Source: Pilasporangium apinafurcum
Taxonomy: Eukaryota > Oomycota > Peronosporomycetes > Pythiales > Pythiaceae
DNA length: 26,398 bases
Assembly (NCBI GenBank): GCA_001600495.1
Contig: BCKE01000049.1
Location: 1 to 26,398 of the forward strand
Reading direction: 5' to 3'
A model generated the notes under the pieces. That model was given only the letters and a program-made list of their open reading frames with translations. It did no database searches and had not been told where the DNA came from. The position numbers and the translations under genes were made by a program. Every line of letters begins with the position of its first letter. The first letter of the stretch is position 1. Below, piece by piece: positions 1 through 24,508 of this stretch.

Positions 1-1527
1 ATGCTAATGTTGTGTTGGTGTTGATGAATTGTATAGTTAATCAAATCACTCAAGCATGGGCAAGGAAAAGGTTCACATTTCGCTCGTCGTCATTGGTCAC
101 GTCGATGCCGGTAAGTCGACCACGACTGGTCACTTGATCTACAAGTGCGGTGGTATCGACAAGCGTACTATTGAAAAGTTCGAGAAGGAAGCCGCTGAAT
201 TGGGCAAGACCTCGTTCAAGTATGCCTGGGTGTTGGACAACTTGAAGGCCGAACGTGAACGTGGTATCACGATCGATATTGCTTTGTGGAAGTTCGAATC
301 CCCCAAGTACTTCTTCACCGTGATTGACGCTCCTGGTCACCGTGATTTCATTAAGAACATGATTACGGGTACCTCGCAAGCCGATTGCGCTATTTTGGTT
401 GTTGCCTCGGGTGTTGGTGAATTCGAAGCCGGTATCTCGAAGGAAGGCCAAACCCGTGAACACGCTCTTTTGGCGTTCACCCTTGGTGTGAAGCAAATGA
501 TTGTTGCTATCAACAAGATGGACGACTCTTCGGTGATGTACGGCCAGGCCCGTTACGAAGAAATCAAGAACGAAGTGACGGCGTACTTGAAGAAGGTTGG
601 CTACAAGCCAGCCAAGATCCCATTCGTGCCAATTTCGGGCTGGGAAGGTGACAACATGATTGAAAAGTCGCCAAACATGCCTTGGTACAAGGGACCTTAC
701 CTCCTTGAAGCGCTTGACCAGTTGAACGCTCCTAAGCGTCCTTCGGACAAGCCTCTTCGTCTGCCTTTGCAGGATGTTTACAAGATCGGCGGTATTGGCA
801 CGGTTCCAGTCGGCCGTGTTGAAACCGGTGTGTTGAAGCCTGGTATGGTTGCCACCTTCGGCCCTACCGGTCTGACCACGGAAGTCAAGTCTGTGGAAAT
901 GCACCACGAATCGTTGCCTGAAGCTGTCCCTGGTGACAACGTTGGTTTCAACGTGAAGAACGTGTCGGTGAAGGAACTTCGCCGTGGTTTCGTTGCTTCG
1001 GACTCGAAGAACGACCCTGCCAAGGGAACGGAAGACTTCACGGCCCAGGTTATTGTGTTGAACCACCCTGGCCAAATCGGTAACGGTTACGCTCCAGTGT
1101 TGGATTGCCACACTGCCCACGTTGCTTGCAAGTTCAAGGAAATCACTGAAAAGATGGATCGTCGTTCGGGTAAGGTGTTGGAACAGCTCCCGAAGTTCGT
1201 GAAGTCGGGTGATGCCTGCATGGTTATCTTGGAACCATCGAAGCCAATGACGGTGGAATCGTTCGCGGACTACCCACCTTTGGGCCGTTTCGCCGTGCGT
1301 GACATGCGTCAGACCGTGGCTGTCGGTGTCATCAAGTCGGTGAACAAGAAGGAAGGTGGCGGCAAGACGACCAAGTCGGCTGCCAAGAAGAAGTAAATGT
1401 AGTTATACACTGGAATTGACATTAGGTTTTGTGTCTTTTGGCAGCGACTGGATAACGATAATTTGCTTTTTTTTAACTTCCAATCTGTTTTGTTTTTGTT
1501 TTCTGTTGAGTATGAACATTGGAATGG
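1..1527 (+). repeat. Left arm of EF-1alpha inverted repeat
   Basis: The arm pairs base for base with the reverse complement of 7318-8844. It covers 55 bases upstream of the EF-1alpha start codon, the whole coding region and 131 bases after the stop. Identity ends abruptly after 1527, where this copy continues GATCC and the other continues CTTGA. No indel is needed over the full length. The sense and one antisense reading frame translate identically in both copies, which leaves little room for even silent differences. The repeat still matches at base 1, so its true left end lies outside the window. Confidence 0.95.
56..1396 (+). CDS. TEF1: Translation elongation factor 1-alpha, copy A
   Basis: This 446-residue GTPase carries aminoacyl-tRNA to the ribosomal A site in the cytosol. 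The P-loop GHVDAGKS is at residues 14-21, followed by the switch region RGITID, the DAPGH motif near residue 91 and NKMD near 153. Beta-barrel domains 2 and 3 follow, and the tail ends in a lysine-rich stretch (KSAAKKK). Length and sequence are normal for a eukaryotic EF-1alpha and close to oomycete versions. The coding region has no intron. Codon use is strongly biased, as expected for a very highly expressed gene, and this bias also creates a long meaningless antisense frame. The product is identical to that of copy B at 7449-8789. Its promoter lies outside the window, so whether it is expressed cannot be judged. Confidence 0.97.
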
Positions 1528-1645
1528 GATCCGAAGAAATGAGCAGTAGGCATCTGAACTTCACTTGAAAATGAAAGCAAGAGATTTCTGAAGATGCTGC
1601 TTGGATTTTGTTCATGAACCCAAACGAATCTTCTTTTTAGTAAAA

Positions 1646-1675
1646 TCCCTTAGCTAAGAATTCTCAGCTTAGGGA
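1646..1675. repeat. Imperfect 30-bp palindrome
   Basis: The sequence reads TCCCTTAGCTAAGAA followed directly by TTCTCAGCTTAGGGA. The two halves are complementary at 13 of 15 positions with no spacer. It lies between the end of the EF-1alpha repeat arm and the ARMT1-like start codon at 1751. It could be a dyad protein-binding site in the ARMT1 promoter, a hairpin in the 5' UTR, or a footprint of the rearrangement that made the repeat. No family is recognised. Confidence 0.6.
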
Positions 1676-1750
1676 CAAATATATGCAATCAGCAATTCTA
1701 TTGACTGACGACAGTTATCAGTAACCAAGTAGAGAAACGGAAGGAGCAGG

Positions 1751-3100
1751 ATGAGTGCTGTCACCCACACCACCACGTCCGAGTTCCTTGCGCGTGTGGC
1801 GCAATGGGAGCTGCTGTACACGAACGTGGAGGGCACGTTCGCCAACAACTCCTACAAAGACCGGTTGCCCGATCTTGTGAAGGACGTTGTGCGTCGTAAT
1901 CAGGAGAGGTTCTCGAAGGCGCAAGTGGATCGCCTACTGCTGCTCGCGCAGGAAATGATTGATAATTCACGTATTCCATTGCCATCGGAAGTAAGCGATA
2001 AATCCCCAACTAGTGCGCATTGGACAGATCTACTGGAGGGAAAAGCGTACACGTGGCAGAACTCGCCCTGGTTTTTGTCGGAGCAATACATGTTCCACTT
2101 GGTGTTAGTCATTGCTGGTTATTACACGACGGGCATTGACCCTTTCCATCCATCGTACGTGACAATACTATGTGATATCATGTGAGCAATTTATTATGCT
2201 GCTTACTAACTATGAGTCTGTCTCTGGTTGTTAACTTATAGGAAAGTGGCTGAACTGGGTGAGGCAACGCCATGGAATCTTCTACACAGCGCAGTCGAAT
2301 TATCCACTATTGATACTGTTGCGACTCGCCACGACCAGTTAAAGCGACTGATGAAACTTTGTTTGTGGGGGAACAAGGCTGATGGCTGCTACACAATCGT
2401 CAAAGACACCATCAGTGGCGACAATGCCACGTTGGACATAGACGATGCCTACCTCTTGGTGGATGACAGCGACAAAGTCATCCACTTCGCAGAAAAACTC
2501 GGTTCAAACCAAGACAAACCTGTGTCTGTGCAATTCATCAACGACAATTGTGGAACAGAGTTACTATTGGATCTGGCGCTCGCAGACCATTTGCTCACGC
2601 ATAAATGGTGCTCTAACGTGACCTTCAACGTCAAGGCAGAGCCCATGTATATCTCAGACGCTACACCTGTGGACGTGACGGAGCATATTCAGGCGATGCA
2701 AACAGCGAGTCACCCACCGGAAATCCAAGAGCTTGGGCGACGCTTGGCCCAGCACGTTGAGAAAAAGCAGTTCATTGTGAGACCAGATCTCTTTTGGAAC
2801 CACTACAGTTTCTACTGGGAGATGCCGGAAAAGCTAGCGACACGCTTGCGAGAAGAGGCGTCACTGGTCATCCTGAAAGGTGATCTGAACTATCGCCGTC
2901 TGTTGGGCGACCGTATGTGGCCAGCAACGACCCCAGTGCAAATCGCGGTTCCGTACTTCCCAGCGCCGTTTGTATCGTTCAGAACATTGAAATCGAATCC
3001 CATTGTGGGTCTTTCTGCTGAGGTAGAGAAGCAATTGGACGCAGAGGATCCGAACTGGCGAATCAATGGCAAGCGCGGCACTATTCAAAGTGTGTTGTAG
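1751..3100 (+). CDS. ARMT1: ARMT1-type damage-control phosphatase (DUF89), two exons
   Basis: This is a member of the metal-dependent DUF89 family, subfamily III. Relatives such as human ARMT1 and yeast YMR027W hydrolyse sugar phosphates, and a carboxyl-methyltransferase role has also been claimed for ARMT1. The exons are 1751-2154 and 2242-3100, giving 420 residues. Family landmarks are YKDRLPDL near residue 36, SPWFLSEQYM, LWGNK (176-180), the metal-site INDNCG with D236 and N237, ISDAT with D274, LKGDLNYRRLLGDR (from about 346) and the C-terminal FRTLKSNPIVGL. A second in-frame donor at 2182 would add nine residues. I prefer the donor GTACGT at 2155 because the joined DPFHPSK fits the family better. 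It ends 77 bases from the convergent gene at 3178. Cytosolic location is assumed because no targeting signal is seen. Confidence 0.9.
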
Positions 3101-3177
3101 GTTGAAAGCATGAGAATGAACATCATGCTTTGCTTTAATTATTAGCTTCGTAGATTGACCGTGCGTTTGCCCTGGAA

Positions 3178-4401
3178 TCAGAAGTTGTAATTGACGCCAA
3201 ATTTTGACAGCACATGAATCAAATTCATAGAGTTACGCTCGCTGAACTCAGCGTCACCCATTATGCTTCCCTCCTCATTTTGGAATATAAATTCATCATC
3301 GCCAATGTCGCTGTGAATGTCAATCGGATCTCGCCGTGGAGCATTCATGGTATTTCGATGTTTCAAAATGCTGGTTCCTTGCTTCTTTGGCGCTCTTTTT
3401 GCAGATGAGCGCGCCAATTCACTTGTGTTAGCCGTATGCTTAGACGATTTCCATGTTTCGTACTTTGCCGTTCGAAAATGACTTGATCTATCTCGATTTA
3501 CGCTTGCCTGTTCGTGCTGCTCTCTCTGAGGCTTATCGTAATGACGCATAGCCACCGGCAGAATGCGATCCATCTTGCAGATCGTGGACGAGTAACTGGG
3601 AATGAGAGGAGCATCCAGACGAGACTCAGACGACAGCAGTGTCGGATCTTTCACTTTTGTTGTATGTAAACCGCCTTTGTTGGATAGACATGGTAACGAG
3701 AGGCTCGGTTTTGCTTGCACATTGCCATCAATAAGCTTTGATAGTGGGGCGATATCAGTAGGATCTTTGCTGTCATCGTCGTTTTCCAACATCAGTCCCA
3801 CGATTTTACATGAAACAGGTATCAGTTGCCGCCGCTCCAGCACATTTTCTATTCGAGATTCGTTGTCGTGGTGATGATTCGGACTTGAGACGATTGCATG
3901 AGATTCTGAAAGATTACATCGTCGCTCGTGTGTTCGTTCAAGTTGCCTGTCGTAGTGTTGATGATAATCGTAGCTTGTGACGACGTTATGTGGTTCTGAG
4001 ATAATAGAAGGACTATTGGTGACCGAGTTCGCTGGCATTGACTGACTCTGGTTACTCGATTGCGAGGAATGATCTTCGTCGTTGCATAAAGTAATAGTTG
4101 CACATCTGCCCTTCACATGGTGTTGCTTTTTGTCCTGATCAACAGTAGGTTTGTACTTTTGACCACGCTCGTTGACAACTTCTTCATATTTTCGGTTGGT
4201 AGTATTCTGTTTTCGACCTTGTTTTCGCTTTTCGTCTTGACTCCTTTCTACTTTCTTGCCCGTGGAATAGGAAAATAGTACCTCTGGCAATGTCGTAAAC
4301 TTTGTCTTGGATCCACTGCACAATGGGCCGTCACTATCATCGACTTCCCATCCAGTTAACTCGATGCCATCATCCTCATCATCTTCGTAATGATTTGCCA
4401 T
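3178..4401 (-). CDS. Unknown protein, probably disordered
   Basis: This is an uninterrupted 407-residue frame that I do not recognise. The first in-frame ATG is at 4401 and gives an acidic start (MANHYEDDEDDG, then ELTGWEVDDSDG). A long low-complexity middle follows, rich in S, N, Q, H, K and R. Basic patches include KRKQGRK near residue 60 and SAKRAPKKQG near 335, and a short, more ordered-looking tail ends in LSKFGVNYNF. No catalytic motif, membrane segment or signal peptide is visible. The open frame continues 15 codons upstream and is hydrophobic there, but it contains no ATG, so a secreted protein is not supported. It may be a regulatory or scaffold protein. It is convergent with the ARMT1-like gene and tandem with the LRAT gene. 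That it is a real gene rests on the length of the open frame alone. Confidence 0.65.
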   Translation of the reverse strand: MANHYEDDEDDGIELTGWEVDDSDGPLCSGSKTKFTTLPEVLFSYSTGKKVERSQDEKRKQGRKQNTTNRKYEEVVNERGQKYKPTVDQDKKQHHVKGRCATITLCNDEDHSSQSSNQSQSMPANSVTNSPSIISEPHNVVTSYDYHQHYDRQLERTHERRCNLSESHAIVSSPNHHHDNESRIENVLERRQLIPVSCKIVGLMLENDDDSKDPTDIAPLSKLIDGNVQAKPSLSLPCLSNKGGLHTTKVKDPTLLSSESRLDAPLIPSYSSTICKMDRILPVAMRHYDKPQREQHEQASVNRDRSSHFRTAKYETWKSSKHTANTSELARSSAKRAPKKQGTSILKHRNTMNAPRRDPIDIHSDIGDDEFIFQNEEGSIMGDAEFSERNSMNLIHVLSKFGVNYNF

Positions 4402-4620
4402 CAATGCCACAAGCAAGCAGACGGGAAAATGCCGTACTATCGACAATGCGATTTATTTTTACACACACTACACATAAAGAACTATGCCAAAAAATCATGA
4501 ACGCACACACTCCCAGATATTCAATGGTTTATCATTTAATGAACGGCACATATGCTACAGGCCTCAAACACAAAAGAAGCAACAACGATAACAATTACAT
4601 CTAAAGCCACAAAGAATAAA

Positions 4621-5691
4621 TTAAGTGAATGATTCTGCGACAAGCACATCGTCCGAAGGTGCTATGGCCACACTCTGACTATCTATGACGTCTGCGTCCA
4701 CGATCTGGAAGGCTGACGCCTTATCCCGTGTATTGAACGTCCGCAAGAGTCCATCACGAGTCTGTGCGCCAATATACCATCGCCGATTGCGGCGACTCTG
4801 TAGCTCGCCATGCCAGGAGTATTCAAACTTAAATAAACTCTCGCGGTGAAAAGAGCGCTTGCGCACCATTTTTAAACAATTGGCCTTAGCGCATAAGTAC
4901 TCCCCCGTTATCGCATCAGCGAGTGTAACTTTCACGCAGTTGTAGGCAACAATCTCAACATCCAAGATGAATGGTGTTGGTGCCTGGCGAAAGGCCAGGT
5001 CGGTCTCCTTGGGATCGTTGTGCACCATATAGAGCGTGTTCCCGAATCGCTTGACAAATTTTGTGTCACTAGTCTGCAGATACACACGCTTGCCCTTTAA
5101 TTCACAGAACTGCTGGTTATGCTCTTGGGCTTCTTCACGCAACTTTTGCAGCGTGTTGTTCAGCGTCCGCAGGACATCGGCTGACTTAGACGACAAGTAC
5201 GGCGCCTTGATATGTACTTTATGGAGCAGCTGCTTGGACCAAACTACGCCGGTTTTGCACCACAATGCGATATGCTCACAATTCATGGATAGAATATTGA
5301 AATGTCCCTTGCCATGACCTAGCAGAAAATTACAGCGTGCAAGTACAACGGGTGGCGTGTCAGACCGTGAACGGTGCACTTCACCCAGTTTTGCAAATGC
5401 GTTCGCGACGAGCGAGCCGCTATACATAACACGCCGCATATCTGACACAGGCCGACCATTGAGAAATTCGGTCAATGATGTCAGTCGGAAACTCGAGTCT
5501 GCCTGTGATTCTCGAAAGTTGTCGATGCGACTCCAGACGTGGGCTATCACAATGTCATCCATATGCTTGCCCGCAGTAAATACGATCCCATGGTGCGTGT
5601 ACCGAAATGGCCATCGTGTCTTGTCCCAAATGCAGATGTGGTCCGTCGCCTGCAGCGTCGCGACGTCCCTTACCGCGCACAGGTTCAGCAT
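4621..5691 (-). CDS. LRAT-domain protein with C-terminal extension
   Basis: The start is the first ATG in frame (5691), giving 356 residues. The N-terminal half is an LRAT/NC domain of the NlpC/P60 papain-like fold. It has YTHHGIVF (His33/34), a second histidine in VIAHVW (His51), and the nucleophile box NCEH with Cys138 followed by IALWCKTG. In animal LRAT and HRAS-like proteins this Cys-His-His set carries out acyl transfer or phospholipase A1/A2 chemistry on membrane lipids, and the same is inferred here. Unlike the animal proteins there is no clear C-terminal membrane anchor. Instead there are about 200 more residues with repeated beta-strand patterns (GKRVYLQTSDTKFV, GEYLCAKANCL, RRWYIGAQTRDG), possibly a beta-trefoil. 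That fold is a guess. No intron is needed. Confidence 0.8.
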   Translation of the reverse strand: MLNLCAVRDVATLQATDHICIWDKTRWPFRYTHHGIVFTAGKHMDDIVIAHVWSRIDNFRESQADSSFRLTSLTEFLNGRPVSDMRRVMYSGSLVANAFAKLGEVHRSRSDTPPVVLARCNFLLGHGKGHFNILSMNCEHIALWCKTGVVWSKQLLHKVHIKAPYLSSKSADVLRTLNNTLQKLREEAQEHNQQFCELKGKRVYLQTSDTKFVKRFGNTLYMVHNDPKETDLAFRQAPTPFILDVEIVAYNCVKVTLADAITGEYLCAKANCLKMVRKRSFHRESLFKFEYSWHGELQSRRNRRWYIGAQTRDGLLRTFNTRDKASAFQIVDADVIDSQSVAIAPSDDVLVAESFT

Positions 5692-7317
5692 CCTCTTCCC
5701 TGTTCTTTCTTCTCTCAAGCTTATTGCTGCTTCTGATATGAGGCAGTGAGTCTCACCCACTCACTTGATCGACCCCACGTTAGGTCAGCAGCAAAGCCTC
5801 AAGCAGGTGCAGCACAGCAGATGCTATGTGCTCTTGTGTGGTGTTCTGCAAGAGCTTCTGTTGGTAATAAAGCACGAGCAGCTACTTACAGATCGTACTG
5901 TACACTCTCACGTGTCGCACCAGCAACCCGCCCCGTTTATCCGCTGGCCATTGATAGCAACCTTCGAAAAAAAATTTAGCCAGTCTCTTCCCAAGTTTAT
6001 TCTATTTAAGAGGTTTTTCGAAATCAGGTTTTGTGGTACGCACACATGTTTTAATTACTAGCGTTTGTTCTGATTTTAGAGTAAAAGCAGATAACATGGG
6101 TAATATGCTCTTAGATAGTTTTTACCTTTTTGACAACGAAAACCGAACGTGACGGATCGCACACAGGAGACCCGGTCGTTGGCGATCGTTTGTAGCTTCA
6201 CAAAAGAAAATTTTCTCCGTTTCTGCAGTTACGTTAAGATGCTGCTGAAAACCTAGTCAGCTCATCCTGATCAGTTATTTTACATACCCAATGTGCTTGT
6301 ATTCATTTTCACATCAACATGCATTCACACATTCCGTTGCACCTTTCTAAGATCGCAAAAGGAATTGCACTGCAGTATTCCGTCCATCCACATTTCTCCT
6401 GCAATTACTTAGGTATCCGTTGGGTTGACAGTCCTATGTTCCAACGCAACTGCGTGCAATTCTTTGACGCCACGTTCCTAATACATCACGGAATCCATCT
6501 GTTGTGAAACTGGAGCTAAATCCCATCGAGTTCTCTAAAACAGATCGGTGGTAATACTAAATGACTGTACATGTATTCAAGCGATAACGAGAGAAACGCA
6601 TGGGAAGCCATCGCTTGGCAGTTTTGCTCTGAATGACCAGCAACGGTTGATCGTTCTCAAAACAGCCATACAGTGGCAACTGAACAACTGATGTGCCCAT
6701 TTGAAAAAACCATCCGTCGGCTAGATAAAACTGGGATACATAATCTATTTGGAAAATAATTTAAAAGAAACAGCGCACATGGTGGATGCCGGATCAAATT
6801 AACTCTGTTTAAAGATGTGCTCCTACTTCCCCATCATCTACAGAAAATTGCTACTATGTTCATGTAGTCGAGAAAGAAAAATGCCAAGCTTCACATCTTC
6901 AACTTACAGAGTGTACTTTGAACTTGCGCTAAACATTCTCGAATGTTGTAGCTACTATCTCCAACGTCGCAAAAATACACTCATCCGCGTTCGCCGCCAA
7001 GTGGATCGAATACCTTGGGTGAGTGTGACGAGACGAAACATTCAGCCCCTCTCCATTTGGGTAAACAGTAACCTTGACCAAACAAATCCGCATAAAATAG
7101 AACACCTGAATGGCTGCATAAAGTTTAATCAAACTGCTGCTTACCACAGTGCAAACATCATCACCATACTTCTCACTAATCGATTATCCAGCGCTCATGT
7201 ACGAATCCTTTGAAGATAAGATTTCTATGTGCGAATGAAGCAGGCTACAAACACAGCTTCTCTCCTTGTAACATTAACAAATTCATTAGGCTCACATTTT
7301 CAACTCTGCCAATCAAG
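5692..7317. other. 1.6-kb region without a convincing gene
   Basis: The region lies between the LRAT start codon and the inner edge of the right EF-1alpha repeat arm. It must contain the LRAT promoter. Open frames here are short, interrupted and without family resemblance. Two weak signals were noted. One is a plus-strand LELNPIEFSK string at 6510-6539, resembling the end of Tc1/IS630-type transposases. The other is a pair of splice-like mini exons on the minus strand around 6908-7065. Neither can be annotated as a gene. No tRNA or spliceosomal RNA was recognised by eye. Confidence 0.5.
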
Positions 7318-8844
7318 CCATTCCAATGTTCATACTCAACAGAAAACAAAAACAAAACAGATTGGAAGTTAAAAAAAAGCAAATTATCGTTATCCAGTCG
7401 CTGCCAAAAGACACAAAACCTAATGTCAATTCCAGTGTATAACTACATTTACTTCTTCTTGGCAGCCGACTTGGTCGTCTTGCCGCCACCTTCCTTCTTG
7501 TTCACCGACTTGATGACACCGACAGCCACGGTCTGACGCATGTCACGCACGGCGAAACGGCCCAAAGGTGGGTAGTCCGCGAACGATTCCACCGTCATTG
7601 GCTTCGATGGTTCCAAGATAACCATGCAGGCATCACCCGACTTCACGAACTTCGGGAGCTGTTCCAACACCTTACCCGAACGACGATCCATCTTTTCAGT
7701 GATTTCCTTGAACTTGCAAGCAACGTGGGCAGTGTGGCAATCCAACACTGGAGCGTAACCGTTACCGATTTGGCCAGGGTGGTTCAACACAATAACCTGG
7801 GCCGTGAAGTCTTCCGTTCCCTTGGCAGGGTCGTTCTTCGAGTCCGAAGCAACGAAACCACGGCGAAGTTCCTTCACCGACACGTTCTTCACGTTGAAAC
7901 CAACGTTGTCACCAGGGACAGCTTCAGGCAACGATTCGTGGTGCATTTCCACAGACTTGACTTCCGTGGTCAGACCGGTAGGGCCGAAGGTGGCAACCAT
8001 ACCAGGCTTCAACACACCGGTTTCAACACGGCCGACTGGAACCGTGCCAATACCGCCGATCTTGTAAACATCCTGCAAAGGCAGACGAAGAGGCTTGTCC
8101 GAAGGACGCTTAGGAGCGTTCAACTGGTCAAGCGCTTCAAGGAGGTAAGGTCCCTTGTACCAAGGCATGTTTGGCGACTTTTCAATCATGTTGTCACCTT
8201 CCCAGCCCGAAATTGGCACGAATGGGATCTTGGCTGGCTTGTAGCCAACCTTCTTCAAGTACGCCGTCACTTCGTTCTTGATTTCTTCGTAACGGGCCTG
8301 GCCGTACATCACCGAAGAGTCGTCCATCTTGTTGATAGCAACAATCATTTGCTTCACACCAAGGGTGAACGCCAAAAGAGCGTGTTCACGGGTTTGGCCT
8401 TCCTTCGAGATACCGGCTTCGAATTCACCAACACCCGAGGCAACAACCAAAATAGCGCAATCGGCTTGCGAGGTACCCGTAATCATGTTCTTAATGAAAT
8501 CACGGTGACCAGGAGCGTCAATCACGGTGAAGAAGTACTTGGGGGATTCGAACTTCCACAAAGCAATATCGATCGTGATACCACGTTCACGTTCGGCCTT
8601 CAAGTTGTCCAACACCCAGGCATACTTGAACGAGGTCTTGCCCAATTCAGCGGCTTCCTTCTCGAACTTTTCAATAGTACGCTTGTCGATACCACCGCAC
8701 TTGTAGATCAAGTGACCAGTCGTGGTCGACTTACCGGCATCGACGTGACCAATGACGACGAGCGAAATGTGAACCTTTTCCTTGCCCATGCTTGAGTGAT
8801 TTGATTAACTATACAATTCATCAACACCAACACAACATTAGCAT
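7318..8844 (-). repeat. Right arm of EF-1alpha inverted repeat
   Basis: This is the reverse complement of 1-1527. The two arms are separated by 5,790 bases of unique sequence (1528-7317), with the 3' ends of the EF-1alpha copies facing inwards. The outer end of the repeat cannot be fixed, because the partner runs out of the window at base 1. The inner end is a clean break at 7318. Such identity, UTRs included, indicates a very recent duplication, continuing gene conversion, or an assembly artefact. Confidence 0.95.
7449..8789 (-). CDS. TEF1: Translation elongation factor 1-alpha, copy B
   Basis: The 446-residue product is identical to that of copy A (56-1396). The same GTPase motifs are present: GHVDAGKS at 14-21, DAPGH near 91 and NKMD near 153. 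Unlike copy A, its upstream region is in the window: a probable 5' UTR intron (8809-8929) and a long pyrimidine-rich tract on its coding strand (8990-9026), both common at very active EF-1alpha promoters. This copy is therefore probably functional. Its 3' UTR equals that of copy A only up to 7318, after which the two diverge, so transcripts might be told apart if polyadenylation lies beyond that point. Gene conversion between the copies would explain the identity. Confidence 0.97.
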
Positions 8845-8929
8845 TTGATTCACTCTGTGGTATGTAGAAAGACGGCGACAATGCGATCCGTCCTTCTTTT
8901 CTTATCGAGATCTGTGGTGCTGCGCTTAC
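8809..8929 (-). other. Probable 5' UTR intron of EF-1alpha copy B
   Basis: On the minus strand a strong donor (AAGG then GTAAGC, first intron base 8929) is followed 121 bases later by an acceptor ending in TTGTATAG (last base 8809), 19 bases before the ATG. A TGCTAAT branch-like site lies about 30 bases before the acceptor. Leader introns are known in EF-1alpha genes of many eukaryotes. If the call is right, the left repeat copy begins inside the same intron at the window edge. No transcript evidence is available. Confidence 0.55.
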
Positions 8930-9653
8930 CTTCTTCTCCGCAGAATGGATAATGAGGGGGGAAGCCACTGGCCGACAGCAAGAGAAAGCGAAAGGGGGGA
9001 GGAGAGGAGGAGGAGGAGGAGGGGAGCTTGTTGGATCCGCTGGTGGTTCTGTGGCTCTCACCTGCGTCCCCAAAATACAAAAAAATCCAACATTTCTACC
9101 AATAATAATCGTTTAATTTTTGAATAGAAGCCAATCATCATGGAAATGCGCTTCTGGCCAATGGTTAATTTTGGAACCGTTGTGGTTGGGACCGTAAGTG
9201 GATGGGGCTACGGGTAAAATGAACGAATGAAGGTGAACCGGTCTATCTTTTTTGTGGTCGGATCCTTTCCTTGCCACTTTGAGTTCAAAATCCTGGTGAT
9301 GCGACTCGACCTTCATTCACATATTCATGCCGCGTAGAATTTCCAAGAGAACGCTTGTGGTTCTGAAGTCGAATCTATATATTCAGTATTTCTACAGAGA
9401 TGGACATTTCTCGAGATAGAACCCTTGCGTTCTTGTCTTTTGGATGTTTCTTACCTACTTTGTCGATCGTGCCAGTGAATGTTTCTATCAATAGATCCAC
9501 TAATCGTCACATTTTATCTATTAATATTAGCCAATAATATACGTTTCTGAATAAAAAAGATCGAAGCGATCTTATAAAGACGCAACGGCAATTTGATGGG
9601 CAAACATGAGTGAATCATGAGTTGGTGGAAATGGACGAACACTTGCGAGAAAA
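8930..9653. promoter_or_regulatory. Divergent promoter region, EF-1alpha copy B and IQ-motif gene
   Basis: This gene-free region lies between two divergent genes. It holds a 37-base uninterrupted purine run at 8990-9026 (GGA repeats; CT-rich on the EF-1alpha coding strand). Two CCAAT motifs occur near 9131 and 9158. A short open stretch begins with ATG at 9140 and ends at a perfect GTAAGT donor at 9194, and could be an upstream exon of the plus-strand transcript. Three ATGs at 9606, 9617 and 9631 precede the IQ-gene start. Transcription start sites cannot be placed from sequence alone. Confidence 0.5.
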
Positions 9654-13905: not shown

Positions 13906-16900
13906 ATGAGTTTGTCGGGCGTGTCTGGTCATCTCGGTGAGGATGGTGGAGGGGGAGATGGGGGTACGAAAGTGGTCCGCAGCGGTACCGTCTCGCAATC
14001 GGATCTCCTGCGTCTTAAGTATACGCGGGCGAATGCATTGGTCTCATCGATTCTCAACAAATACTATAATGGCTCTCCACGTGCCGTGGATCCATTCGTG
14101 ATCCGCTGTTTACAGAAAGAGGAAACGCGGCTGTTCAGTATGCAATGCTTTTTGGAAGAGGTAGAAAACAAATCTTAATTTGGTAAAATAACCATGAGAT
14201 GCTTACACAGATATGATTCAATATGAGTAGGGACCGACGGAGCAAAACCGTGCATTCAAGGAGTCGTCTGTGTTGAAAAACGCGCGCATGCCACCCCAGT
14301 CCACCTCGTGTAAGTTCATCGCTAGTCGTCTATGGTATAATTATGAATTCCATGAAACTCTTGGTATCGCTCTTTGACGCAGTTCTTAATCGCCTCTTTC
14401 CTGTCTGTGCGGGGTATTGTGGCTCGAGCTCCGTCATGTACCTCACCACTTTCATTTTCACAACTCCCCAACCGAGGCTGAACTAACGTTGCCCATTTGT
14501 ACAGGCGTCGGTGGGATGCCCTGAGTGAAGCAGGTGACTACGATGAAGCCATGGCCGAGTACATTGGGGTTGTCGACAAGATTCTCCCCGGATGGGACCA
14601 TGCTATTGACTACCCGGTTTCCAGGCAATGCAAGTTTTGGAAAGACGACTCCACAACTGACCAGTGCCACTACTGTGGTGCGCATTTTGGTATCCAGACC
14701 CGTCGTCATCATTGCCGGATGTGCTTTGAGATCTTTTGCATCGATTGTTGCGCCGCGACAATCGAACTTGCGCTTTGCCCTGGTGCTCCATTACGTAAAC
14801 AGCGTGTGTGTTGTCAATGTCTGCAGGATATTGAACGAAACAACAGCTTATTGGAAGTACGTCGCATCATCCGCGAAAATCACGAGTTGGAGCAAAATAT
14901 CAAAGAGATTCAAGCCGCTACCGAGTCCATTATCACGGCCAAGCAGCGCGAAGAAGCGCAGCTGCGTGAAGAAGCGTCGGCGTGTGGCTGCGATATGGTG
15001 CTACTCGACACGGCGATCCAAGCGCAAATCGGGAGCCCTGTGTCGATCTTGGTCAAGACTCCACCATCGCACAAGTTTGCACCACGGGAGACAGTTGAAG
15101 CTAATGACCAATTGGCGCTGGCGAATCGCCAGCTATTGATGGGGCTCAAAGCCGCACAATGTCGTGCAAAGAAGGCGATCGAGAAGATGGATGTCACTCT
15201 GGCAGTACTCCGAGACGCAATTTACGGTGGTAATGGCACCAATAACAGCGGAGCTGGAGCCATAACTCATTGGCATGCCACTATTTTATATCATATCCTC
15301 CCGTACATGACACTTTATGACATCAAGAGGCTGGGTATAGTCTGCAAAGGGCTCCATGTGAACCTCAAACGACTCAAGTGCGAAGAAAAGTGTATCCTAA
15401 AGCATGGCGTGGCGCCACCTGCGATGCGCGGACGAGTGTGGCAGGTCCAGTGTCTTAAAAACGACAAAACACGAGCATATGTCGTTGATCTCGCAGAAGA
15501 GATTCGTACGCGCCTGGATTCGTCGGATTCCGAGACGGATGACTCGGATTCAAATGGCATGATTGGTGGTTCGCAATCTCCTAGTCATCTCGAAAAGCCG
15601 CAGTGGTACTCACTACTGTCAGCTCAGGAAGATCCCGTGAAGAAATCACTGTGGATGAAAAGTTACGAAATCATTTTGGCACGCTGCCAAAGCTGTGAAA
15701 CACCCATGGAGTATGATGAGCAAATCCGTAACGACGTGCAGCGAACGTTTGGCGTGTCGGCATTACGAAGACTGCGACGCAAATCGTACCATTGTACGAG
15801 CACTCAAAATCAGCAACAGCCTATCGATCTTCCGATAGAGACACGCCAAAAAGCTCTGACGAATGTGCTTCGCGCATTTTCCAGTGTGAACACGGAGATT
15901 GGGTACTGCCAGGGAATGGACTATGTTACAGCCGTCCTGCTAGCAGTTTCGGACTGGAACGAGGCGAACGCATTTTGGCTGCTGACAAGCATGGTGGCAT
16001 CACCACGATATGAACTGGAGTTCCTGTATTGCACTGAAATTCCACATTTGAGTCTGCGATGCTTTCAGGTACCATGAATACAAATATCTGATGGCATATT
16101 TGCTGATAACATACTGATCAAAACACAAATATGTTAGCTGGAGAAACTGATTCAGCTTCATTTGCCGGAATTATCTGCGCATTTAAAAGAGCTGGAATTT
16201 CCTGTCAGTGTTTTCGCAACCGGGTAAAGAGTTAGGACGGATGATGTCAGTTTTTCCGTCAAAGGCATCATACCTTGATGTTAACTTGATTCCATTTTTT
16301 CGCAGGTGGTTCATGACACTCTTTACCAATATGGAAGCGCTTTCGTACGATGTACTGGTTCGTGTCTTGGATGGGTTCTTCATCGTAGGATGGAAATATA
16401 TCTTTCGGGTTGCGCTGGTGATCGTGGAAATGCTACAGGTAGATCCAGTCTTGTGCGCTTGGTTTGTTCTGTTGTATATCACTAAGTAACCCAGCATTAT
16501 GTGTCCCTTTCTGGAAAAGCACCAAATTCTGGCGAGTTCGTTTGAAGAAATTCCGCAAATTTTCTACGATATCCAAGGCAATGCGGTGAGCCCAACTCTA
16601 TAACTTCTGAAGAGGACTTTATAAATCATCTGTGGGTTCATTTCGTGTCTTTGCTCACTGTACCAGCCGAGGCTTCTTCTACCGGGCGTTGTCATGCAGA
16701 TGGCTGTAACATACAAGGTATTGTGGCTTTTAGCTTCGTCATAAGTGTGCAAGTGTAGGGATGTCAATGTGACATTTTCGGATATACCCGTCGCAGGTGA
16801 CCAACGGTATGCTTAAGCGCCTCCAGCAGGAATATGAGACGTCATTGTCACCTCGCGTTGCCTCATCTCATGGGGCTGCAGCAACAACCAACAAACTTAT

Positions 16901-21031: not shown

Positions 21032-24000
21032 ATGGACGCGAGCCAATTGCGGAACCTGGAAGCACTCTGCAAGGTGCTCTACGAGAGCGCCAATGAAAGC
21101 GAACGTGCGCACGCACAGCAGTCAGTGCTGATTCTGCAAAGCGCAGCAGAGTACATTCCACAGTGTCAGTACGTCCTGGACAATTCATCATCGCCCTATG
21201 CGCTGCTGGTCGCGAGCAATAGTTTGACGAAACTCATTACGACGCATTGGAACAATTTTACACCCCCTGAGCGTGTTGATATCCGTAAGTGGTGTGCCTG
21301 TTTGTTGCATGTGGATATATTTTCTGTATTGCGTATCGTACGCCAATATCTGGTGCAGAGATGCAATAGCAACACGATAAATCAAGCAAGGGATTGTAGT
21401 ATAAGCACTAACGTTCCATTATACGTGTTGAAAATTGTAGGTAATTATGTACTGGGGTATTTGGCACAGAAAGGACCGACGCTGGAGAAGTTTGTGACAA
21501 CCTCGTTGATTCAATTGGTATGCCGCCTCACTAAATACGGCTGGTTTGATGATGAACAACATCGTGAGATCGTGAACGAAGCTACCAAGTTTTTGCATGC
21601 CACGGTCGACCATTGCATCATTGGGTTGCAAATCTTGAACGAATTAGTCACGGAGATGAATTTGCCTGTGGCGGGTCGCAACATTACGTTTCACCGAAAG
21701 ATCGCTGTGTCATTCCGAGAAGATTCACTGTTCCGTGTTTTTCAAGTTGCATTGACAACGATGAAGGAGTTGCAAACTCACAATATCATTGGGGCAAATG
21801 CAGATCAGGAGAATCGCATGAGTGATCAGGCACTTGGATTGCTTATTAAGTGCCTTTCCTTTGATTTTATTGGTACAAATCCGGATGAATCTTCTGAAGA
21901 AACGGGCTCGCTACAGGTACCGACCTCCTGGAGGCCGGTCATCCAAGATCCACAAACCATGCAACTCTTATTTGATTTTTACAAGACCAGCAACCCGCCG
22001 AATTCGTCGAAATGCTTGGAGGCGCTAATGCTATTTGCATCGGTACGTCGAAATTTATTCTCACCGGATAAGGAGCGCGGTGTGTTTCTCGCGCAATTAC
22101 TAGCGGGAATTTGCGAAATTCTCTCGACGCAGCGAGGATTATCTGACCAACAGAACTATCATGAATTTTGTCGATTGATCGGTCGCTTGAAATCAAACTA
22201 CCAGTTGTCGGAGCTGATGAAGGCAGACTCATTTCAGGAATGGATGGATCTGACGCCGGACTTTACGGTCAAGTCGTTCCGGCAATGGCAATGGTCAGCG
22301 AATTCCACGCACTACTTGTTGGGATTATGGGCTAGGTTAGTGGCAGCTCTGCCATACATACGAGTAGAGGCACGTCCAGGTTCGCCGACATCTGCCACGT
22401 TTTTGGACAATAGTGTGCCACTAGTCATCCAGGCATACGTTCAATCTCGTTTGGATTCTGCAGAGCAATGCGCTACAGATGATTCTCTGGATAATCCATT
22501 AGATGATGAAGGTGGTTTATATGAGCAGCTCGAGAAGCTCCCCACTTTGTGCCATTTTAATTATCGTAGCTCAGGAGAGTATATTGTGACGTTGCTGGAT
22601 CCTATTTTGAACCAATACGCGGAGGCATGCAGCATTTTGGAACAAAATGGTCGCGATATGAATGAGGCAGTTCATCAGCAAGTAGAGACAATGGAGAATC
22701 AGCTGGCGTGGTTAGTGTATGTGATTGGATCAATAATTGGCGGTCAGACGTATGCATCTGGATCAACTGAGGGAGACGAATTGATTGATGCGGATTTATC
22801 GCAGCGAGTGTTCCGTGCTATGCAACTTACTGAACATCGCTTGATTACGTCTGGTGGCCAGCAAAAGCCAAGCCTTCACTTTGAGTTAGCGCTTTTATAT
22901 TACTTCAGCAGCTTCCGAAAGAGCTACATTGGCGAGCAACATGGGATGCCTTCGGCTCCAATGCCATCGTCGGTTATGCAGTCATCCTCACCGATTATGG
23001 CTCCATCCGAAGCGTCCATGACAGGAAAGCACAAGGCGTATCAGCGAATGTTCGATCGAATGGGACTAGGTGATCACACAATTGTCGTCAATATGATTGT
23101 TACCAAAATCGGCAACAATCTGAAGTTCTGGGGAGAAGATGAGGTTGTGATCAGCAAGACTTTGGCGCTGTTTTTTGAAATTACATCAGGCTATTCGTCA
23201 GGAAAGTTGCTGTTAGGTCTGGAAACGGTGCAGTATTTAATTGGTCACCACACAGCGGACGAATTCCCTTTCTTGGCAATTCCAGCGAACACGCGTCATC
23301 GCACAACCTTTCACACCACCATAGCACGGTTGCTCTTTACGACTGCGTTTGACGAATCCTCAGATCGATTTGAGAGATTCATGGAGCCAATAGAGGAAGT
23401 TCTGAACAAGTTGATGCAAACACCAAACTACCGTTTACCAGAAGTGAAAGAGGCTGTCATCGGTGTCTGTCGAGATTTGAGAGGTATTGTACAACAAACA
23501 CACAATCGAAGAACGTTCAGCTGCATTTTCGACTTTCTCTATCCAACGTACTTTCCAGTATTTGTACGGGCTGCCGAAGAGCTGTACGACAATCCGCATG
23601 TCATGACCGCGCTATTGAAATTCTTGCAGGAACTAGCATACAACAAGGCACAGCGAGTAATGTTTGATCAAAGTTCAGCCAACGGGATCTTGCTGTTCCG
23701 CGAATTGAGTAGCGTTGTGGTGGCGTATGGACGACGGATACAGCCACTACAAGTAGGCAAGAACCCGTATGGTGAGAAGTACAAAGGGATCTCATTATGC
23801 CTCGGCATCCTGTATCGAGCACTCGGCGGTAATTACGTCAACTTCGGTGTGTTCAAACTCTACAACGACCAATCACTAGATAATGCATTGGAAGTTGCGC
23901 TTCAACTCGTACTTTCTATTCCACATGAAGATTTGATGAACTATCCCAAGGTGAAGAATGCCTATTTCTTCTTCTTAGAGATATTATTCCGCAATCAAAT

Positions 24001-24508
24001 CGCATCAGTGGTGGCATTAGAGGGAAGCATTTTCACCCAGCTGGTGCAATCACTGCATGAAGGAATCAATTCATACGACTTGGCAATTGCCGCCCAGTGT
24101 GCTACTGCTGTAGATCACCTGGCAACGCTTTATTTCCACGAAATGAAGAAAAAGCGCGATACCCCCATGAAGCACGCACTGTTGGCACATTTACAAGCAA
24201 ATCCGACGATGTGGTCGACACTGCTGTCATCGCTCTTTGATATCTTGGTATATGGTGAAGCGACTTCGCAATGGGCTCTTTCACGTCCGATCTTGAGCTT
24301 GACGCTATGCAGCGAAGATGCGTTGAATGCATACCAACAATCACTGAGTGCCTCACAATCGATGGAAAACCAGGCACTGATCGAGGAAGCCTTTGCTGCG
24401 CTTTTCTCGGACGTGTTACCGAATTTGGAAGCCGCGAATCGTGACAAGTTCACTCAGAAACTCGGTCAATTCCGGAACACGCTACGAGGATTTCTGACCA
24501 TTCAATAG
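21032..24508 (+). CDS. XPO7: Exportin-7 (RanBP16 family nuclear export receptor), two exons
   Basis: The proposed exons are 21032-21284 and 21441-24508, giving 1,106 residues (human XPO7 has 1,087). Exportin-7 is a karyopherin-beta HEAT-repeat receptor that binds RanGTP and carries cargo through the nuclear pore. The match runs end to end: LEALCKVLYE at the start, DIRNYVLGYLA across the splice, KYGWFDDE, FDFIGTNPDESSEE, QVPTSWRP, YHEFCRLIGRLKSNYQL, THYLLGLWARL, DPLDDEGG, WLVYVIGSIIGG, GYSSGKLLLGLE, RDLRGIV, SANGILLFRELS, YKGISLCLGIL, GNYVNFGVFKLYND, LLSIPHEDLMNYPK and RDKFTQKLGQFR at the end. The 156-base intron has no stop and is a multiple of three, so the unspliced frame reads through as 1,158 codons. 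The extra 52 residues have no counterpart in the family. Confidence 0.96.
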   Translation: MDASQLRNLEALCKVLYESANESERAHAQQSVLILQSAAEYIPQCQYVLDNSSSPYALLVASNSLTKLITTHWNNFTPPERVDIRKWCACLLHVDIFSVLRIVRQYLVQRCNSNTINQARDCSISTNVPLYVLKIVGNYVLGYLAQKGPTLEKFVTTSLIQLVCRLTKYGWFDDEQHREIVNEATKFLHATVDHCIIGLQILNELVTEMNLPVAGRNITFHRKIAVSFREDSLFRVFQVALTTMKELQTHNIIGANADQENRMSDQALGLLIKCLSFDFIGTNPDESSEETGSLQVPTSWRPVIQDPQTMQLLFDFYKTSNPPNSSKCLEALMLFASVRRNLFSPDKERGVFLAQLLAGICEILSTQRGLSDQQNYHEFCRLIGRLKSNYQLSELMKADSFQEWMDLTPDFTVKSFRQWQWSANSTHYLLGLWARLVAALPYIRVEARPGSPTSATFLDNSVPLVIQAYVQSRLDSAEQCATDDSLDNPLDDEGGLYEQLEKLPTLCHFNYRSSGEYIVTLLDPILNQYAEACSILEQNGRDMNEAVHQQVETMENQLAWLVYVIGSIIGGQTYASGSTEGDELIDADLSQRVFRAMQLTEHRLITSGGQQKPSLHFELALLYYFSSFRKSYIGEQHGMPSAPMPSSVMQSSSPIMAPSEASMTGKHKAYQRMFDRMGLGDHTIVVNMIVTKIGNNLKFWGEDEVVISKTLALFFEITSGYSSGKLLLGLETVQYLIGHHTADEFPFLAIPANTRHRTTFHTTIARLLFTTAFDESSDRFERFMEPIEEVLNKLMQTPNYRLPEVKEAVIGVCRDLRGIVQQTHNRRTFSCIFDFLYPTYFPVFVRAAEELYDNPHVMTALLKFLQELAYNKAQRVMFDQSSANGILLFRELSSVVVAYGRRIQPLQVGKNPYGEKYKGISLCLGILYRALGGNYVNFGVFKLYNDQSLDNALEVALQLVLSIPHEDLMNYPKVKNAYFFFLEILFRNQIASVVALEGSIFTQLVQSLHEGINSYDLAIAAQCATAVDHLATLYFHEMKKKRDTPMKHALLAHLQANPTMWSTLLSSLFDILVYGEATSQWALSRPILSLTLCSEDALNAYQQSLSASQSMENQALIEEAFAALFSDVLPNLEAANRDKFTQKLGQFRNTLRGFLTIQ
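21285..21440 (+). other. Stop-free in-frame intron of exportin-7
   Basis: The donor GTAAGT at 21285, a CTAAC branch-like site near 21410 and the acceptor TTGTAG ending at 21440 are all strong. The interval is 156 bases, exactly 52 codons, with no stop in the surrounding frame. Removing it joins DIR to NYVLGYLA, which matches the family (DIRNYVLNYLA in human). Keeping it inserts 52 residues into the N-terminal HEAT repeats. Confidence 0.9.

Follow-up and report, generated by a model that had tools for sequence, protein, structure and literature searches.

Identical tail-to-tail eEF1A genes in the oomycete Pilasporangium apinafurcum: probable homogenisation of an old inverted duplication

Introduction

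In Plasmodium and Babesia, two identical EF-1alpha genes lie inverted and head to head, and in Babesia divergens the inverted repeat includes an intron and the two genes share a promoter region of about 1.4 kb (PMC12984197). Among bacteria, the duplicate elongation-factor genes tufA and tufB are kept alike by gene conversion (PMC4342817). On chromosome XIV of Saccharomyces, near-identical, gene-bearing inverted repeats of about 4 kb are continually homogenised and flank other genes in a flip/flop region of 24 kb, the repeat genes being sporulation genes, and both orientations are found within and across species (PMC9731477). Recurrent flips between the highly alike arms of human inverted repeats have been established by genotyping individuals (PMC3961182). 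Here we describe a pair of eEF1A (EF-1alpha) genes in the oomycete Pilasporangium apinafurcum (assembly GCA_001600495.1; 36.5 Mb, 136 contigs), located at the start of a stretch of 26,398 nt, termed the window, which comprises the first bases of contig BCKE01000049.1 (C49; 278,690 bp). We argue that the pair probably stems from an old tail-to-tail duplication, the arms of which have been kept identical by gene conversion while promoters and outer flanks diverged.

Results

The first-pass annotation of this stretch, made from sequence alone, had described apparently identical EF-1alpha genes facing each other around some 5.8 kb of single-copy DNA, and this layout is borne out in full. The two arms (A and B; Table 1) are exact inverted copies of each other over 1,527 nt (100% complementary, the strings being equal by script), are separated by a loop of 5,790 nt, and form the sole inverted pair of at least 40 nt reported in the window (14-base seed). 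Each arm consists of a complete eEF1A open reading frame (ORF) of 446 amino acids (aa), with a family match spanning the whole protein, a leader of 55 bases, and 131 bases after the stop codon, such that the two genes face each other tail to tail. The arms show no substitution at any of 404 sites under weak constraint, made up of 218 fourfold sites, 131 in the 3' flank and 55 in the leader. In an assembly-wide DNA search the loop matched its own genome only at itself, and arm B is bordered by unique sequence on both sides within C49.

Searching the genome with the first 1,600 bases of the window returned three places, namely both arms and C58:1-1528 (minus strand). C49 starts exactly at the 5' end of the repeat and C58 exactly at its 3' end, resulting in complementary truncation, and the C58 copy and arm B diverge from the repeat at the same base. 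From these complementary ends we infer that C58:1-1528 and arm A probably represent a single physical copy that the assembly prints twice, with C58, reversed, running into C49. C58 would thereby very probably supply the outer side of arm A, including the outer repeat end and the copy-A promoter that the first-pass annotation had placed to the left of the contig start. Because C58 and arm B part at the same base, and C58 is read as the outer side of arm A, the repeat ends on this reading at base 1 of the window, and the earlier estimate of sharply bounded arms of at least 1,527 bp can be refined to 1,527. The three printed copies differ solely in the length of a T run in the 3' flank (9 T on C58, 8 T in both C49 arms), which may represent a real one-base homopolymer difference or polishing noise; it is located at 1440-1480 of the window and at 50-65 of the fetched C58 piece.

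A comparison of contig ends covered 62 ends (first or last 2,000 bases) from 42 of the 136 contigs, 12 of these ends being wholly N and hence not comparable, and gave 33 alignments between 32 end pairs (each pair counted once; self-matches and alignments below 200 bases left out). Among the ends compared, C49/C58 was the only reciprocal terminus-to-terminus pair, although longer overlaps or the 94 unsampled contigs could hide more. The start of C12 and the end of C52, whose alignment ran to the 2,000-base limit, were considered as a second such pair and rejected upon comparison of 6,000 bases each: their match (94.9% over 2,425 bp) touches the C52 end, misses the C12 start, and begins 893 bases inside its own far side, and so is not reciprocal.

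Outside the identical tract, a block of 28 bases, TCATTATCCATTCTGCGGAGAAGAAGGT, is identical upstream of the arm B gene and of the C58 copy, in otherwise unrelated upstream sequence. With up to 3 mismatches allowed, a search of the 36.5-Mb assembly, N stretches being unreadable, located the block at these two places only and the reversed control at 0. It lies 83 bases (arm B) and 100 bases (C58) beyond the tract edge, and begins 166 and 183 bases, respectively, before the start codon. The upstream alignment extends from the 28 identical bases to 41 bases at 90%, reaching into the start of a putative intron, with a local score of 60 (at most 31 among 300 base shuffles). Downstream of the arms no diverged homology was detected (local score 27, shuffle maximum 33).

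Within the block, CCATTCT matches the pattern of the oomycete initiator, whose consensus is YCAYTYY (PMC3599244). A GT donor at the end of the block, together with a common TTGTATAG acceptor, suggests an intron in the 5' untranslated region (UTR) of 121 nt in copy B and 138 nt on C58. The tract edge at 8844/8845 falls within this predicted intron, the last 36 bases of which are identical and inside the tract, leaving outer portions of 85 (B) and 102 (C58) bases. Past their first 6 bases these outer portions are not significantly alike, the score being reached by 94 of 500 shuffles.

The PF22594 model matches six places in the genome, three of which correspond to this eEF1A gene; the other three were assigned to eRF3 (C19), an HBS1-like gene (C6) and a GTPBP-like gene (C51) by reading of the ORFs, without a family search. 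The pair thus appears to constitute the whole eEF1A supply of the genome, with EFL not searched with a model of its own; several Pythium species are reported to carry EFL (PMC3699394). Since the reading frame is intact and a core-promoter-like block is kept in each copy, both are probably expressed. Two promoters serving one protein would fit a role in dosage. Phylogenetics routinely uses eEF1A as a marker, and it commonly serves as a reference gene. Studies of copy number or expression in P. apinafurcum are affected by its presence as two homogenised copies with different promoters.

Neighbouring gene pairs were also sought in five families (histone, HSP70, actin, tubulin and mitochondrial carrier). 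Pairs on C47, C15, C26 and C28 and the ends of C11 and C94 were compared, a small sample picked by eye that leaves out, for example, pairs of histone (C63), HSP70 (C46) and carrier (C53) genes. The closest parallel is a facing pair of histone H2B genes at C47:198929-199803 and 203007-203881, the arms of which agree over 875 bp apart from a single mismatch at the inner edge and have unrelated flanks. Each arm takes in 135 bp ahead of the ORF and 380 bp after it, and the loop of 3,203 bp between the arms contains H3, H4 and an ATPase-like gene in two ORFs; the histone family was assigned by Pfam search, the H2B type and the identities of the loop genes by ORF reading. No older homology was found outside the H2B arms, and a recent duplication could account for this pair, which weakens the parallel with eEF1A. 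As a second case, H2B nonetheless hints at a pattern that merits counting across the genome. Related hairpin-like elements of 42-48 bases, 81-91% complementary between places (Table 1), also occur close to the ORF ends of H2B, H3 and H4, and are perhaps histone mRNA 3' end elements.

Two alpha-tubulin genes, at C28:50995-52416 and 57731-59163, likewise form a facing inverted pair (96.0% over 1,433 bp); the second C28 piece also contains 739 N and a further exact match of 95 bases. Further alpha-tubulin copies at the ends of C11 and C94 agree at 98.5% over 1,390 bp, and contig C94 ends within its copy, so that here too a contig break coincides with a duplicated housekeeping gene. The neighbouring HSP70 genes on C15, inverted and pointing apart (73.8% over 1,823 bp), and the actin genes on C26, in the same direction (77.3% over 1,100 bp), are not homogenised. 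Of five pairs, eEF1A included, the three most alike are those that face each other, but five pairs are too few for a claim.

Coordinates of the features are collected in Table 1. In the loop, the two ORFs of the ARMT1-like gene are probably joined by an intron (2185-2351). Further into the window, 14551-16077 and 21032-24508 hold a gene for a FYVE and RabGAP-TBC protein and an exportin-7-like gene, ordinary housekeeping neighbours. Adjoining copy A on C58 (2695-6423 of the fetched C58 piece) are ORFs with a dioxygenase domain, a PH domain and thymidylate synthase. In the genome as a whole, elicitin domains, which are typical of oomycetes, match 50 places, in keeping with an oomycete source.

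Table 1. Features of the eEF1A locus (window coordinates) and hairpin-like elements near the histone genes (coordinates of the fetched C47 piece).
Feature	Position	Strand	Remarks
Arm A, identity tract	1..1527	+	Starts at contig start; outer flank very probably C58 from base 1529
eEF1A copy A, intact, 446 aa	56..1396	+	Pfam GTP_EFTU, GTP-eEF1A_C; best PDB matches are eEF1A
3' flank common to both copies, 131 bases	1397..1527	+	Includes the 8-T run (9 T on C58)
Loop, 5,790 bp	1528..7317	.	One copy in genome at DNA level
ARMT1-like gene, ORFs 1751-2185 and 2351-3100	1751..3100	+	Only the second ORF matches the family
407-aa ORF	3178..4401	-	No Pfam family
LRAT-domain gene, 356 aa	4621..5691	-	Domain match
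Arm B, identity tract	7318..8844	-	Inverted-repeat match to arm A
eEF1A copy B, 446 aa	7449..8789	-	Identical to copy A
Putative 5'-UTR intron, copy B, 121 nt	8809..8929	-	Splice-site-like sequences
28-base block common with the C58 copy	8928..8955	-	Initiator-like CCATTCT at 8942-8948, putative short 5' exon, putative GT donor
Hairpin-like elements	2034-2075, 4040-4087, 5261-5308, 5737-5780		Fetched C47 piece; piece 1430 = C47:198929

Discussion

Under the history that we favour, eEF1A would have been duplicated long ago in an oomycete, in inverted, tail-to-tail orientation. Gene conversion between the arms would since have maintained identity in the coding regions, the 3' flanks and the 3' end of the intron in the 5' UTR, with divergence beyond recognition in the promoters, in the downstream sequence and over most of the intron outside the tract. 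We favour old duplication with homogenisation because the two copies share, beyond the identical tract, homology that predates their identity. The upstream regions share ancestry yet have diverged, with the 404 inner sites unchanged, a combination that points to conversion and that a fresh duplication ending at these edges fails to explain. The locus thus displays two features of concerted evolution: identity that takes in weakly constrained sites and gives way abruptly to diverged sequence, and older homology outside the tract, the latter on the upstream side only.

A recent segmental duplication, in which a 1,527-bp piece was freshly copied in inverted orientation and has had no time to diverge, would make conversion unneeded, and a fresh insertion would indeed give full identity with abrupt ends and flanks that are for the most part unrelated. 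However, a copy ending inside the intron would be devoid of the promoter block, whereas both genes possess it, at similar distances outside the tract, and it was found nowhere else. Of the two origins put forward in the first-pass annotation, a recent duplication and ongoing gene conversion, the shared block therefore favours the second, acting on an old duplication, and we consider recent duplication improbable. A retrocopy was ruled out, given that the tract includes the 3' end of the putative intron and that no poly-A stretch is found at its 3' edge.

Several points weigh against old duplication with conversion. The shared upstream evidence is one short stretch (28 bases identical; 41 at 90%), which functional constraint could keep, although even a stretch so kept would imply that the upstream regions descend from one ancestor. 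Downstream of the eEF1A arms homology is no longer recognisable, and none was seen beyond the H2B arms. Consensus polishing of a repeat may inflate identity, and C58 differs by one T. The case, furthermore, comes from one genome, and the junction of C58 with C49 is deduced from their complementary ends.

The last of these points bears on the assembly itself. The first-pass annotation had called the locus a classic place for an assembly error, and that warning stands insofar as a contig break falls exactly on the repeat and one copy is probably spread over two contigs. Were real differences overwritten by one consensus, or the inverted layout a wrong join, the complementary starts of C49 and C58 would resemble a repeat-graph edge printed twice, consistent with their being the sole such reciprocal pair in the sampled ends and with the one-base difference in the T run between printed copies. 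Against this, the two distinct upstream regions correspond to two eEF1A loci, arm B is attached to unique sequence on both sides within C49, and the H2B pair, of the same layout, sits inside contig C47. We therefore regard an assembly or consensus effect as unlikely, and the pair is not a simple artefact, because two eEF1A genes with different promoter regions exist in the assembly.

Less probable again is the presence of three or more identical eEF1A copies, with arm A and C58:1-1528 as separate genes whose other flanks lie on missing contigs. The search does list three places, but the truncated copies are exact complements, one without all of the 5' flank and the other without all of the 3' flank, and a search of the assembly located the promoter block just twice. 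Finally, an invertible switch, in which a dedicated recombinase flips the loop and alters gene order or expression, is scarcely credible, since the inverted-repeat layout and nothing else speaks for it, the arms are an ordinary housekeeping gene, promoters outside the arms mean that a flip would alter no eEF1A promoter-gene pairing, and no recombinase or transposase family was found among the 10 window ORFs scanned of the 15 listed with at least 120 aa (the other five, including eEF1A copy B, and smaller ORFs being unscanned).

A flip of the loop without such an enzyme is mechanistically possible and plausible by precedent. Should conversion between the arms end in a crossover, the loop would be inverted, each gene would remain unaltered and next to its own promoter, and only the sequence beyond the 3' flank would be exchanged. 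That C58 is unjoined to C49, though arm B is joined, is compatible with reads of both orientations and equally with an ordinary unresolved repeat. Tentatively, these elements may be combined: the loop might exist in both orientations, hence the contig break, and the facing geometry of dosage-critical genes might both preserve their identity and make harmless flip-flop segments, a joint reading that we find doubtful though worth stating. If true, facing inverted pairs a few kb apart (eEF1A 100%, H2B 99.9%, alpha-tubulin 96%) would let their arms pair and convert each other. The locus also offers a small natural test of the links among inverted geometry, gene conversion and inversion.

Comparison with known systems

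No report of an oomycete eEF1A in this arrangement was found among the literature matches listed, which is not proof of absence. Like the Saccharomyces flip/flop region, the locus has a unique segment set between near-identical inverted repeats that carry genes; here, by contrast, the arms measure 1.5 kb, the loop 5.8 kb, the repeated gene is eEF1A, and one orientation is known, from one assembly. Polymorphic human inversions are alike in their highly similar inverted arms and differ in that their flips were genotyped, whereas P. apinafurcum is represented by one assembly only. A recombinase-driven element would have a recombinase gene in or beside the segment, and the scanned ORFs revealed none. 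The bacterial tufA and tufB genes differ in encoding EF-Tu; the title of a paper on the tuf genes by Hughes (2000) reportedly ties gene conversion to inversions. With Plasmodium and Babesia, P. apinafurcum shares an identical, inverted EF-1alpha pair; unlike theirs, its genes lie tail to tail rather than head to head, with separate, diverged promoters on the outside and unrelated genes between. Identical inverted EF-1alpha pairs and homogenised EF-Tu duplicates are already known, and what sets this locus apart is its arrangement, tail to tail with separate promoters and unrelated genes between, rather than the phenomenon itself.

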